Shown: in pieces, positions 1,231 through 59,384 of the stretch
Layout: the number at the start of each line of letters is the position of its first letter
How positions within the stretch are numbered: the stretch's first letter is position 1
Assembly: GCA_003164895.1 (NCBI GenBank)
Contig: PLUL01000006.1
Location: 1-64,000, forward strand
DNA from: Bacteroidota bacterium
GTDB taxonomy: Bacteria; Bacteroidota; Bacteroidia; Palsa-948
Length of the DNA stretch: 64,000 nt
Reading direction: 5' to 3'
Notes under the pieces: model-generated
Told to the model about the DNA's origin: nothing
Database searches by the model: none
The model's input: only the letters and a program-made list of their open reading frames with translations
Position numbers and translations under genes: made by a program

Positions 1231-1348
1231 TTTGTTTTGTTTTTAGTGAATATGTAATTTTTAGTAAGTGAAATATTCTGAATGATAAGCGGGATAAAAA
1301 AACTCACCATTGTCACATACCATTTAAATGGGTGTAACAAGAAATCTG

Positions 1349-1558
1349 ATCATTGAAACGTACCCTTTCATCGTTTCAATAAAAGATATGATCATTGAAA
1401 TATTTTTACTGACGATTGCAATAAAATATTTAATGATTGAACTGTTTTCTTTCATCCATGAAATAAAAAATCGCACAATTGAAAGATGGATTCCAATCAT
1501 TGAAATGGCAGCACCCATTATTGAAATATTATTTCCAATCACCTCTTTTTTTTTCATC
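1349..1558. repeat. 21-bp phased tandem array 1
   Basis: Ten consecutive 21-bp units start at 1349, 1370, 1391, 1412, 1433, 1454, 1475, 1496, 1517 and 1538, with no register slip. The first 10 bp are semi-conserved (consensus ATCATTGAAA) and the next 11 bp are variable and AT-rich. The last unit is decayed. Because 21 is a multiple of three, both strands stay open and would encode seven-residue repeats; a minus-strand frame of 85 codons (ATG at 1581, stop at 1324) exists but has no recognisable domain. I read this as DNA structure or a multi-site operator rather than a gene. It sits upstream of the split gene at 1230 and downstream of the LytTR gene. Confidence 0.85.
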
Positions 1559-1673
1559 ACTATGTTTTTCTCTGTTTTCATCTTGTGTTCTTTTTGAGTT
1601 ATCAGTTTTCCTATTCTGTTCTGTTGCTGTTTCTGGCATAATAACTCAAGGAGGAAAACAGATGTTGCATGGG

Positions 1674-1730
1674 TTCTCACGGGCGAAGGTTTTTTCTCAC
1701 GAGCAGATGAAATTTCTCACTGGCGAGGGT
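1674..1730. repeat. Three 20-bp direct repeats beside the LytTR gene
   Basis: TTCTCAC recurs at 1674, 1694 and 1714, an exact 20-bp step. Each is followed by a related G-rich part (GGGCGAAGG, GAGCAGATG, TGGCGAGGG). The third copy runs into the stop codon of the LytTR gene. Its period differs by one base from the neighbouring 21-bp array. Confidence 0.6.
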
Positions 1731-2116
1731 CAGGCGGCGGAAGATGAAACGCCTTTATTTTTTTCGTCAACAAACTTTTTCACCCGCACATATCCTGCGG
1801 CATTGAGTTGAATGATTTCGTTGTTGCTCAGCTTTGCCTGATGCCATGCGTAACCAATAACTTCATCCAGCTTGATGAGGTAATAGCGGTGCACACGCAC
1901 AAAAAGCATAAGCGAGTCAAATTTTTTTTGAAAGATATTGAGGCGGTAGGAGTATTCTATTATTTCACCGTCCTTGAAATGAATGCAGCACTTTTTCCCG
2001 CAGGATTTTACATACAACACGTCTTCAGCCAGTCGGCTGATGGATAAACCCTTCTTTTTAAATGCAGCGCAAAGCACATGGAAGTTATTTTTATTTGCGC
2101 GTAGAGGTATTATCAT
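1730..2116 (-). CDS. Stand-alone LytTR DNA-binding protein
   Basis: A protein of 128 residues consisting almost only of a LytTR domain. A lead-in strand and a DVLYVKSCGKKCCIHFKDGEIIEYSYRL-type core are followed by the hallmark FVRVHRYYLIKLDEVIGY segment near residues 72-89. LytTR domains bind DNA with beta-strand loops and usually recognise two 9-bp direct repeats about 21 bp apart. No receiver or membrane domain precedes it, so signal input is not visible. ATG at 2116 is the first in-frame start. It is divergent from the secreted protein at 2408 and adjacent to two repeat arrays (20-bp and 21-bp). That neighbourhood makes a role in reading those arrays a reasonable but untested inference. 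Confidence 0.85.
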   Translation of the reverse strand: MIIPLRANKNNFHVLCAAFKKKGLSISRLAEDVLYVKSCGKKCCIHFKDGEIIEYSYRLNIFQKKFDSLMLFVRVHRYYLIKLDEVIGYAWHQAKLSNNEIIQLNAAGYVRVKKFVDEKNKGVSSSAA

Positions 2117-27153: not shown

Positions 27154-29886
27154 TTACTTTGTTTCGTTCTCAAACATTGTTTCGGTGATGGGATCTTTAT
27201 CTTTAAAGAAATAAACTCCGCCCCAGTTGTGCGTAACGCGGGTATAAACTCCGGCATAATCATCTTTAATAACCACACGGCGAAGAATTGTTTTGTTGCC
27301 ATCCACAGTTTCTTCTTCGGTAACACCGGCAGGATATTTTGCTCTAAGCTCATTCACATATTGTTTCTTTTGATCTTCAGCCGAAACAGCAGGAGCATCT
27401 TTTTGTTTTTTCGGTGTCTGAACAACCGTTTGATTGCTGTTAAGAATATCTGCAATCTGTTTCAATCTGTCCTTCGGATATTTTTCAGAAGGTTTATAAC
27501 TCAACGCTTCTTCGTAAGCTGGCTTGGCGGTGTGGTAATCTTTTTTTGAGAACGCAATATCGCCTCGTGATATAGCAGTGGAATATTTCAGCTGAATATC
27601 TTTATCCGCCTGCGCCTGACCTCTTGCTTTTTCTATCTGCGCAATTTCGGCAAGTTTATCTTTTGGATATTGTTCATTAGGTTTGTAGGTGAGCGCTTCG
27701 TTGTAAGCCACTTTTGCATTGGCAAAACTATTTTCTTTGAATGCGGCATCGCCTCTGGCAACCGCAGCGAGATAATCTTTATCCGCAACTTGTCCGGCAG
27801 ATTGTTTGTCGGCTTTGGTTTTCAGCAGTTTATCCATCTCTGCAATTTTATCTTTCGGAAATTGTTCCAAAGGTTTTATTCCAGATGCTTCCTGATAATC
27901 GCTTTTTGCAGTTGCATAATCTTTGGCGGCAACATCTTTAGCTGCACGGGCAAGCGCTTCGTTATATTTTTTATTCTGTTCCTGTGCCGATTGATTTTTC
28001 AGCAAAGTTTCTAACTCAGTAAGTTTTTGTTTCGGATATTGTTCGGCAGGTTTCAGCGTGGATGCTTCGGCATAAGAAGTTTTAGCTGTGGAATAATCTT
28101 TCGTAGTCATTGCATTATCTCCTTTGGCAATGGCAGCTTTATATTTTTCATCCGCTTCTTTTGCCGATTGAGCAGCAGCAGCTATTTTGTCAATCTCGGC
28201 AAGTTTTGTTTTGGGATATTGCTCCGCGGGTTTTATTCCAAGCGCATTGTTGTATTCCGATTTTGCGTTATCATAATCTTTGGCGGCAAAAAACTTATCG
28301 GCTTTTGCAACGGCATCTTTAAATTGCTGGTCTTTTTCTGCTGAAGATTTTTGAGAAGCAATATCGGCAAGCAGTTTATCAATCTCCGCGATTTTTGTTT
28401 TAGGATATTGCTCCGCAGGTTTTAACGCCGAAGCATCGGCATACGAACTTTTTGCAGACATGTAATTTTTCTTTCCGAATAATTCATCGGCTTTTGCAAT
28501 CATGTTTTTATATTTCTTGTCAAGTTCTTCGCTTTTTGACATATCGGCAAGAAACTTGTCTATCTCCGCGATTTTTGTTTTAGGATATTGCTCCGAAGAT
28601 TTTAACTCAGATGCTTGCTTGTAAGAACTTTTTGCACCTGCATAATCTTTTGTTCCGAAAGTAGCATCGGCTTTTGCAATCAGATCTTTGTATTGCTGGT
28701 CTTTCTTTTTGTCTGCATCAGCCGATGAAAGTAATTTATCAATTTCCGCAAGTTTTGTTTTGGGATACGATTCAGAAGATTTTAATCCCAATGCTTCAGT
28801 GTAATTTGATTTTGCATTGGTGTAATTTTTTGAACCAAATGCTGCATCTGCTTTTGCAATGGCAGCTTTGTATTTGTCGTCAATTTCTTTTTGCTTTCCT
28901 GCATCCGCCAAAAGATTATCAATCTCCGCAAGTTTTGTTTTAGGATATTGTTCTGAAGGTTTTATGCCGGATGCTTCATTATATCCGGCTTTTGCAGTGG
29001 TATAATCTTTCTTGCCAAATGCGCCGTCAGCTTTTGCGATAACAGCTTTATATTTATCGTCAATCTCTCTTTGTTTACCTGCATTGGCAAGCAGTTTATC
29101 AATCTCCGCAAGTTTTTGTTTAGGATAAGGTTCAGTGGGTTTCAAAACTGCAGCCTCGCTGTATCCACTTTTTGCATTCATGTAATCAGTATTGCTGAAT
29201 GATTTATCCGCTTTGTCAATTGCAGCTTTATATTTTTTATCAAGTTCCATTTGCTTTTGAGCTTCCTGTGCGGCATTCTTAGCTTTTTCCGCCATTTCTT
29301 TTTCTGCTTTCTTTTGCAAATCCTCAAGCTCAGAAAGTTTCGACTGAACGGCATCGGTATATTTCTGATCGTAATTAAAATTGGTTTCAGACGGAATGTA
29401 TTGATAAATGGCAATGGGTTGACTGAGGATTGCTTCCACGCGTTTTGAAATTTCGGGAGCAGAAGGCATTTCAAAAAGAGTTACATCCGGTTGAAACGGA
29501 TTGAAGTTGCCCGCATCAACTCTATCAGCAGGAACATTGGAAGTATTTATCTTAAATTTTTTTGTTACATATCCCGGTTTTGTGATGGCGATAATATATT
29601 CTCCGTTTGGAGGGAGTTCAAAACTGAATTTTCCATTTGATGTGGTAACTACTTGTTGAAGCTGCGTGCCGCCTTTATAAAGCGTAACGATGGAGCCGGT
29701 TAATTTTTCGCCTCCTGAAAATACTTTTCCGTCAACTGGCATTACCCAGCTTTGTGCGAAAGAAATCGTTTGAAAAAGAAAAAGAGAAATAATTACTAAG
29801 AAACGGAAAAGGGGAAGCGATATTTCCGTCAGACTATGGAAATATTCAATTTTAGAATTATTTTCAATGAGTAGAGGTCTTTTCAT
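27154..29886 (-). CDS. Secreted 910-residue protein: regulatory beta domain plus ten TPR-like repeats
   Basis: A hydrophobic signal (FLVIISLFLFQTISFAQS) is preceded by about 25 extra residues, so the true start may be an internal codon. A carboxypeptidase-regulatory-like domain follows (about 47-135: VDGKVFSGGEKLTGSIVTLYKGG to GYVTKKF). A Lys/Ala coiled coil (about 180-215) leads into ten repeats of about 60-70 residues with the core YxxAxxxYxxAxxLKPxExYPKxKLAEID. They resemble tetratricopeptide helices arranged as a long alpha-solenoid. The C-terminal domain (about 845-910) has KQYVNELRAKYPAGVTEETVDGN-like residues and THNWGGVYFFKDKDPIT. The family is seen in Bacteroidota but its role is unknown; a periplasmic scaffold is plausible. 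Confidence 0.8.
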   Translation of the reverse strand: MKRPLLIENNSKIEYFHSLTEISLPLFRFLVIISLFLFQTISFAQSWVMPVDGKVFSGGEKLTGSIVTLYKGGTQLQQVVTTSNGKFSFELPPNGEYIIAITKPGYVTKKFKINTSNVPADRVDAGNFNPFQPDVTLFEMPSAPEISKRVEAILSQPIAIYQYIPSETNFNYDQKYTDAVQSKLSELEDLQKKAEKEMAEKAKNAAQEAQKQMELDKKYKAAIDKADKSFSNTDYMNAKSGYSEAAVLKPTEPYPKQKLAEIDKLLANAGKQREIDDKYKAVIAKADGAFGKKDYTTAKAGYNEASGIKPSEQYPKTKLAEIDNLLADAGKQKEIDDKYKAAIAKADAAFGSKNYTNAKSNYTEALGLKSSESYPKTKLAEIDKLLSSADADKKKDQQYKDLIAKADATFGTKDYAGAKSSYKQASELKSSEQYPKTKIAEIDKFLADMSKSEELDKKYKNMIAKADELFGKKNYMSAKSSYADASALKPAEQYPKTKIAEIDKLLADIASQKSSAEKDQQFKDAVAKADKFFAAKDYDNAKSEYNNALGIKPAEQYPKTKLAEIDKIAAAAQSAKEADEKYKAAIAKGDNAMTTKDYSTAKTSYAEASTLKPAEQYPKQKLTELETLLKNQSAQEQNKKYNEALARAAKDVAAKDYATAKSDYQEASGIKPLEQFPKDKIAEMDKLLKTKADKQSAGQVADKDYLAAVARGDAAFKENSFANAKVAYNEALTYKPNEQYPKDKLAEIAQIEKARGQAQADKDIQLKYSTAISRGDIAFSKKDYHTAKPAYEEALSYKPSEKYPKDRLKQIADILNSNQTVVQTPKKQKDAPAVSAEDQKKQYVNELRAKYPAGVTEEETVDGNKTILRRVVIKDDYAGVYTRVTHNWGGVYFFKDKDPITETMFENETK
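27440..29250 (-). repeat. Ten tandem coding repeats of about 180-210 bp
   Basis: Ten consecutive repeat units encode the alpha-helical solenoid of the 910-residue protein. Recurring landmarks are YPKTKLAEIDKLL, ADAxFGxKxYxxAK and YKAAIAKAD. The units are well conserved at DNA level, so copy-number change by recombination is possible. Confidence 0.85.
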
Positions 29887-57482: not shown

Positions 57483-59030
57483 TCAATGGCTCAAAATTAT
57501 CTTTTTTGTGGCAACTCCTTGCTCATTTTTTATTTTCATAAAGTAAACTCCATCCGGTGTTGCGCTCAAATCAATTTGTTGATTTTGAGATTTGATGATT
57601 TGCCGATTAATACGTTCTCCGAGAACATTATATATTTCCATTTGCGCATTTTCAAATTTACTCATCTGAACATTAAAAACTCCTTTGGTTGGATTGGGAT
57701 AAATATTTATTAAATCGTTTGATATAATTTCATTTACCGCAGTAGCAGGAGAGCAAGTGCTGTCAATAGGCATAAAATTAATAAGTCCGTAATTTATATT
57801 ATCATAACCATCATAAATTACTGCTCTTGTAGAAGCAGAATCGGGAGTACACCAGAAATTATGAGTTGCGTTGATATTGCCGTTTGATGTATATTTTATG
57901 TCATAAGTAGTGTTATTGCATATCCTGTTACAAGTAATAGTACTGTTTTTATTATTTAAAGTAATTCCCAAAGTATTATTCTCAATTATATTTTTTGTAA
58001 TTGTAAACGCTCCTAAATTATCAACAATACCAATGCTTCCATATCTAATTGTGTTTCCACTTATAATAGCAAAGCCATTTAAGTTGAAACTTTCATCTTG
58101 AATATTGTCTCCAGTATTATGTTCAATAATGTTTCCAAGGATTACTGAAACAGCTGTTTGAATACCTTCTCCATTGTACCTTATATAGCAGTTAACGACA
58201 GAATCACCATTTGCAGATATTCCAAGTACACTATTTGAATCAATTGTACAATTTTTTATTCTGTTTTCACTACTACTTTTAATTCCTGTTTGATTGTATT
58301 TAAAAGAACAATTATTTGCTGCGGTATAGGTAGGAATCAGTCCTGTTTGATTGGAGTTAAAAATGCAATTATTAATTTGGCTATGATTACCGCCAGATTG
58401 TAACCCTGTTCCATTATTTGAAAAATAACAATTATTGATGGTTGCAGAAACCAACTCAGTTAATATCATACCATAGTTTAAATTGTTTTTGAAATTACAG
58501 GAATCTATAAAAGCAATGCCAGTGTACGACCATGTCATCCCTTCATAGCCAATAAAATATACTCCCCAGTTATTAAAATTGAAATTACAATTTTTGATAA
58601 TTAATGAATCAGAAATAGATGAGTACAAAGTAGGAGATAAGTTAATTCCATAATTCGCATATTGAAAAGTACAATAGTTAAATTTTGAAGACATGTTTTC
58701 TCCGTTCAAGTATATTGAATTCCAAATTCCCACAGTTGGAGAAGGTGAGTTACTTGTAAACGAAATAGAATCAGTAAGTGTCCCAATCGCAATCAACCCT
58801 GATTGCCTCAACTCAATTCGCATCCCATTATTAAACTTCACCGTTACTCCCGGCTGTATGGTAAGTGTTACGCCAGGAAAAACAACCACGGTATCAGTAA
58901 CTATATAAGGGCTATTTGCTTGTGTCCAAGAGGTGTTGCTATAAATACCACCGCTTACGTTGGTTTGGGCTTGGGCGCAATTGATGATAATGGTAATACC
59001 CGTGATGATAAGAATGTAAAATTTTTTCAT
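57483..59030 (-). CDS. T9SS cargo protein with right-handed beta-helix
   Basis: 515 residues. A signal peptide (MKKFYILIITGITIIINCAQAQ) precedes many Asn-rich repeats (INNCYFSNNGTGLQSG, IKNCNFNFNNWGVYF, IISGNTIRYGSIGI) of a parallel beta-helix like pectate lyase or NosD (about 60-420). The type A sorting domain at the end is IYPNPTKGVFNVQMSKFENAQMEIYNVLGE...GVYFMKIKNEQGVATKKIILSH. It should be secreted and anchored to the cell surface. Ligand or substrate is unknown. The 21-bp array 2 begins about 45 bp upstream of its start. Confidence 0.9.
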   Translation of the reverse strand: MKKFYILIITGITIIINCAQAQTNVSGGIYSNTSWTQANSPYIVTDTVVVFPGVTLTIQPGVTVKFNNGMRIELRQSGLIAIGTLTDSISFTSNSPSPTVGIWNSIYLNGENMSSKFNYCTFQYANYGINLSPTLYSSISDSLIIKNCNFNFNNWGVYFIGYEGMTWSYTGIAFIDSCNFKNNLNYGMILTELVSATINNCYFSNNGTGLQSGGNHSQINNCIFNSNQTGLIPTYTAANNCSFKYNQTGIKSSSENRIKNCTIDSNSVLGISANGDSVVNCYIRYNGEGIQTAVSVILGNIIEHNTGDNIQDESFNLNGFAIISGNTIRYGSIGIVDNLGAFTITKNIIENNTLGITLNNKNSTITCNRICNNTTYDIKYTSNGNINATHNFWCTPDSASTRAVIYDGYDNINYGLINFMPIDSTCSPATAVNEIISNDLINIYPNPTKGVFNVQMSKFENAQMEIYNVLGERINRQIIKSQNQQIDLSATPDGVYFMKIKNEQGVATKKIILSH

Positions 59031-59073
59031 TTTTTCAAGTTATTAGCAAATTTTGCTTGTTTTTGTATGTTTC

Positions 59074-59325
59074 GTAATTGCAATATGTATTATCATAATT
59101 ACAATATGCCATATCCCAATTACAATATGTATTATTCTAATTCAAATATTTGTTATTGTAATTACAATAGTTGTTTTCTTGATTAAAATAACTGTTTTCC
59201 CAATTAGGATTCCTGTTATTGTAATTACGATTCCTGTTTTCCTAATTATGATTCCTGTTATTGTAATTACAATTCCTGTTTTCCTAATTGGAATTCCTGT
59301 TATCCCAATTATGATTCCTGTTTTT
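59074..59325. repeat. 21-bp phased tandem array 2
   Basis: Twelve units with AATT at 59076, 59097, 59118, 59139, 59160, (GATT at 59181), 59202, 59223, 59244, 59265, 59286 and 59307, an exact 21-bp step. In the last six units TCCTG also recurs every 21 bp from 59211 to 59316. Spacers alternate (GTTATTGTAATTAC and GTTTTCCTAATTA types), giving a 42-bp higher order. The minus strand contains stop codons in several units, so it is not a gene in the direction of its neighbours. It fills the 354-bp gap between two T9SS genes. Confidence 0.9.
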
Positions 59326-59384
59326 TGAGTTAAAATTCATGATTTTGTTATTGCTAAATCAGTTCCTTTTAATTATAAATGACT

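Follow-up and report, generated by a model that had tools for sequence, protein, structure and literature searches.

The window, by which we mean the whole stretch of 64,000 nucleotides analysed here, carries a phased array of 21-bp units next to a gene for a stand-alone LytTR protein. This array belongs to a large and apparently undescribed genome-wide class of repeats, with a unit of exactly two helix turns, that lie just before certain Bacteroidota genes, above all those of two families that we call gene A and gene B. What persists from one array to the next is the period, the location upstream of a gene and, in most cases, dyad symmetry within the unit; the letters of the unit vary from array to array and are replaced more quickly than the genes on either side. 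We found no description of such arrays in the literature that was searched, which was largely that outside subscription journals.

The array in the window and its neighbours

The sequence-only reading of this DNA had placed ten 21-bp units with an ATTGA core at 1349-2116, between a LytTR gene and a split gene. The array is real and in fixed register, with units starting at 1349, 1370, 1391, 1412, 1433, 1454, 1475, 1496 and 1517, and the tenth unit, at 1538, is partial. ATTGA is exact in six of the nine full units and the remaining three are near misses; the conserved segment is an unbroken run of approximately ten bases (+ strand, ATNATTGAAA), and the other 11 are nearly free. The interval 1349-2116 spans both the array and the LytTR gene, and the array alone is shorter (Table 1). 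Its position between the two genes was borne out, and the split gene proved to be a single frame that one in-frame stop codon interrupts.

The window array is beyond chance. Identity within 1346-1560 is 0.495 at lag 21 and 0.561 at lag 42, a signal above that of all 1000 dinucleotide shuffles: at lag 21 the best of these reached 0.423, and over lags 10 to 60 their best value was 0.458. When the 64 kb were ranked by lag-21 signal this array came second, after a further array of the same class that is better preserved and has no LytTR neighbour (Table 1). The window also holds an imperfect tandem repeat of period 180 and 3.2 copies at 28562-29135, probably formed by protein-coding repeats.

Table 1. 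Positions of the arrays and genes discussed in the text. Positions refer to the window unless a locus is named.
Feature	Position	Strand	Remarks
21-bp phased array	1349..1545	.	Nine full units and an incomplete tenth; core on + strand ATNATTGAAA; some 11 bases of each unit variable
Stand-alone LytTR DNA-binding protein, 128 aa	1730..2116	-	PF04397 above cut-off; stop codon 185 bp from array
Gene A, encoding an uncharacterised basic protein of about 260 aa	394..1230	-	Start codon 119 bp from array; in-frame TAA at 721-723
Open frame crossing the array, on the strand of LytTR and gene A	1324..1680	-	ATG-led part MKTEKNIV...; judged other than a conserved feature
Second 21/42-bp array, same class, core AATTA	59072..59350	.	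42 bp 5' of gene 57483-59030 (-)
Gene B, FN3-like end	L157:6734-7366		Arrays beside most of 8 loci, other families included

The product of 1730-2116 matches PF04397 at 30.9 bits (cut-off 22.6) and has no receiver domain. A profile of its relatives matches 3d6w (E 2.5e-7) and AgrA, and a low-confidence structure model (pLDDT 56) has the AgrA LytTR domain 3bs1 among its matches, with a probability of 0.91 but an E-value of 0.14. Scans of genome and viral collections with this LytTR subfamily returned a same-genus relative alone, or nothing. Relatives of gene A, which encode basic proteins with a median pI of 9.4, gave no significant match in Pfam, NCBIfam or the PDB, and no DNA-binding domain was found by those sequence searches. 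In these relatives the frame is open across the region of the stop codon seen in the window. Because of this one in-frame TAA the window copy of gene A is probably a pseudogene, and the module as a whole may therefore be decaying.

Arrays upstream of genes across Bacteroidia

Scanned by lag over 1.22 Mb, the own genome of the window yielded 16 lag-21 arrays, 17 lag-42 arrays and six at lag 18, and none at lags 19, 20, 22 or 23; the thresholds for arrays, here and elsewhere (identity of 0.47-0.55 over 84-126 bp), were chosen during the analysis. Of the 16 lag-21 arrays a few fall within protein repeats, and most lie between genes, usually 40-175 bp before a start codon, as measured by hand. Several arrays in this genome have neither gene A nor gene B alongside, and arrays with neither gene A nor LytTR exist. 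One array of this genome (L169, L030; G000:C26:47204-47550) is unusual, since most arrays are 5' of a gene and it sits between the ends of convergent genes. Its neighbours are a small gene whose end is FN3-like and another small gene which, judged by eye, resembles HTH genes and has no significant Pfam match.

A class-wide search found gene A in 19 of 395 genomes, which, like the other genomes compared, are largely drafts in which repeats may be mis-assembled. Among the 46 gene-A loci with enough sequence, 42 have an array (lag 21 or lag 42) in the 600 bp 5' of gene A and three have one in the 600 bp on its 3' side; at two of the four misses (L114 and L129) the array lies inside a frame that was called too long. 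The best lag was 21 or 42 at 41 of the 46 loci. At these loci (L104-L151) lag 42 gave more identity than lag 21 in 28 of the 46 arrays (28 vs 13), a higher-order repeat of two units. The median distance from the end of the array to the gene A ORF start is 72 bp.

On its upstream side the array at gene-A loci is bordered by a LytTR gene, an XRE-like or a LuxR-like HTH gene (HTH types assigned by eye), or no regulator, and more than half of the modules have no recognisable regulator gene there. In several families regulator, array and gene A follow one another in this order along a single strand. At stand-alone LytTR loci, too, the usual order is LytTR, array and a same-strand gene, the last being gene A in the window and at L056, L086 and L099, and a gene with an FN3-like C-terminus at L053, L054 and L081. 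PHROGs matched gene B relatives with minor tail proteins at the level of the FN3 domain only, and this assignment was rejected.

The link proposed in the sequence-only reading would have been refuted if arrays in relatives had shown no association with LytTR genes; they do show one. A motif-free lag test on seven genomes of the order detected a 21-bp array within 1.5 kb of eight of 12 same-genus stand-alone LytTR loci and of none of 20 full-length LytTR response regulators (Fisher p=4.7e-5); loci found through gene A were kept out of this estimate. The eight are the window, L053, L054, L056, L057, L081, L085 and L086, the calls at L057 and L085 being the weakest. One full-length locus (L075) scored highly only through homopolymer or 7-mer runs and was counted as having no array. 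Two of the other stand-alone loci carry different repeats, a 41-bp array at L055 and a short 42-bp repeat at L080. At L055/L088, in the same-genus genome G004, the LytTR protein is of the same subfamily, and repeats of 41 bp (18+23) take the place of the 21-bp units. In the class-wide set, for which window lengths differed slightly from those of the same-order stage, none of 24 further full-length LytTR loci reached 0.55 at lag 21. Stand-alone LytTR genes with an array occur in other families as well (L099, L100, L137 and L138), and the class-wide loci L252, L253 and L254 have a stand-alone LytTR gene and no array.

The association does not extend to the argument from spacing. Repeats approximately 21 bp apart do lie beside a LytTR gene, as at LytTR operators, but the same period accompanies XRE or LuxR-type HTH genes, occurs without a regulator, and recurs in approximately 16 arrays per 1.2 Mb. 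Since the period is genome-wide and common to arrays that have no LytTR gene, it is by itself no evidence for LytTR binding. LytTR is often the neighbour of an array, but it is one among several partners.

The general LytTR consensus is WMMGTTNRK. It is not enriched over 13 LytTR-linked arrays (mean z -0.09), and the window array matches it at 5.15 of 8 positions, against 5.08 for the null. The exceptions are L100, L085 and L138, of which L100 is the clearest (mean match 6.0 of 8). Pairs of ATTGAA were uninformative as a search pattern and were abandoned.

Unit symmetry and the level at which the arrays act

Closely related modules can have different units. Between L108 and L109 the gene A proteins are 89% identical and the LytTR proteins, compared by eye, almost the same. 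Their units are clearly different, CTGTC-N4-GACAG in L108 and GCC-N4-GGC in L109, with a unit profile similarity of 0.42 where the background is 0.36 +/- 0.05. When the two are aligned on the dyad, a partial core TTCYGYC-N4-GRCnGAA common to both can be made out by eye. The units of L106 and L124, where gene A is 80% identical, also differ. Between gene A proteins of approximately 60% identity the units are hardly recognisable, and overall the correlation between unit similarity and gene A identity is positive but weak (Spearman 0.15).

The dyad within the unit is a general feature. It gave a Stouffer z of 10.3 over 43 arrays, with permuted unit columns as the null, and of 5.7 over a second set of 18 further arrays, mostly from other places; these combined values treat arrays as independent, and related arrays are not fully so. 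The window array by itself has no significant dyad (z 0.2). The motif common to all arrays is a sense-strand TT (IC 3.75, against a null of 3.27 +/- 0.08), which is above the null but weak, and insufficient to name a binder.

Many arrays contain inverted repeats around a 4-nt centre and the distance between array and gene A is short, which might point to RNA, with the array forming a leader with a short hairpin every 21 nt that controls gene A translation or titrates an RNA-binding protein. We consider this improbable. Predicted folding did not differ between the strands (p=0.18), the sense strand having the lower energy in 16 of 43 arrays, 69 G.T pairs were observed where 69.2 are expected, and there is little covariation (1021 vs 982). 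It is more improbable still that the array codes for a small heptad-repeat protein between regulator and gene A, 21 bp being seven codons. Many arrays do have an open sense frame, some of them beginning MKT... upstream of the repeats. However, such a frame was found in 26 of 43 arrays (17 having none at the measured limits), a usable ATG in 16, and variation is equal at the three codon positions (0.35, 0.32 and 0.36), with no third-position bias; the array at L127 has stops in all frames and that at L055 has a period of 41 bp. Since strand folding, G.U pairs, open frames and codon variation fit neither RNA nor peptide, action at the level of double-stranded DNA is favoured.

Possible protein docking on phased arrays and its alternatives

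The reading that we prefer, to which we would give a probability of approximately 45%, is that these are docking arrays on double-stranded DNA in which every two turns accommodate one small protein, always on the same face of the helix. Each 21-bp unit, usually with dyad arms of approximately 5 bp and a centre of approximately 4 bp, would bind one small DNA-binding protein or dimer. The bound proteins would be aligned on one helix face and would load cooperatively, possibly in a filament-like manner, and the loaded array would switch the downstream gene, such as gene A. The likeliest binder would be the product of the small DNA-binding gene upstream, which is LytTR here and an XRE or LuxR-type HTH gene elsewhere. 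Known LytTR sites consist of two repeats of 9-11 nt that are 11-13 nt apart and have no common consensus (PMC4847170), which is compatible with 21 bp; because the window LytTR gene is adjacent, and because known LytTR sites combine such spacing with the lack of a shared consensus, its product is the likeliest candidate. Where no regulator lies upstream, as in more than half of the modules, the binder would therefore have to act in trans or be a gene product of the module, possibly gene A itself. The absence of a strand difference and of a G.T excess is as expected of duplex DNA and speaks for docking. Against it, an array of 8-20 sites exceeds the need of a switch, units differ between L108 and L109 despite near-identical LytTR proteins, LytTR-linked arrays have no excess of the LytTR consensus, over half of the modules are without a regulator, and the window module itself lacks a significant dyad and has a stop codon in gene A.

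It is unlikely, though worth weighing, that the gene A or gene B product coats its own array, for self-recognition, autoregulation or as a centromere-like nucleoprotein, with LytTR or HTH proteins as optional accessories. Gene A is the constant partner (42 of 46 loci) while regulators come and go, its products are basic, and unit similarity does climb, if weakly, with gene A identity. However, sequence searches against Pfam, NCBIfam and the PDB gave these products no DNA-binding domain, the units are hardly recognisable once gene A identity has fallen to approximately 60%, and several arrays in the own genome have neither gene beside them. Arrays with neither gene A nor LytTR would suit satellites kept by slippage or gene conversion, their 21-bp period favoured by copying or DNA curvature, with no dedicated protein reader. 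So would the replacement of units faster than of flanking genes, and the frequent excess of lag 42 over lag 21 that is typical of higher-order repeats. We regard this as rather unlikely, since slippage alone does not explain the strict 5' location (42 vs 3), the dyad within the unit or the same period across families.

The docking reading can be compared with several known systems. The arrays resemble LytTR operators of the AgrA, VirR, YpdB and PlnC/D type in their two-turn spacing, in the small all-beta DNA-binding domain encoded next door and in lying 5' of a presumed target. They differ in having 8-20 sites rather than two, in units that are usually dyad-symmetric, in showing no enrichment of the LytTR consensus and in a period that also occurs with other regulators or none; moreover the domain here is stand-alone, without a receiver. 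BldC of Streptomyces binds cooperatively to direct repeats of variable number (PMC5859096), and like it a putative small single-domain protein could coat a variable number of helix-phased direct repeats here. In contrast, BldC is MerR-like, its repeats are approximately 9 bp long, and no homologue was found here. Plasmid iterons and partition centromeres are likewise tandem direct repeats at a spacing of approximately two turns, and the gene for a small protein that binds them lies alongside, a role that is putative here. However, LytTR, HTH or uncharacterised genes, and no Rep or Par gene, lie beside the arrays, there are many differing arrays per genome, and one gene A protein had no plasmid or phage match; a plasmid iteron or centromere system is not supported. 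REP/BIME palindromic repeats are also intergenic, dyad-symmetric and present in many copies per genome, but the arrays described here each have their own unit sequence and a fixed head-to-tail period of 21 bp, and no associated transposase was seen.

The arrays present a DNA feature with conserved spacing and symmetry whose sequence is not conserved, and they give two large uncharacterised Bacteroidota protein families a shared cis element that is open to test. We suggest, tentatively, that conserved period, dyad and position in the absence of conserved sequence mark private docking platforms, read through module-specific co-evolution or DNA geometry. Such platforms might be widespread and as yet undescribed, and be linked with uncharacterised small proteins whose families diversify fast and with small DNA-binding proteins that can replace one another. 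If a protein does load on the arrays, they would serve as a model for the way in which site arrays co-evolve with binding specificity, and would supply natural, matched protein/array pairs with many sites. At one further locus (L087, 4327-6434) two FN3-like gene B copies, 64% identical to each other, follow a single LytTR-array module.
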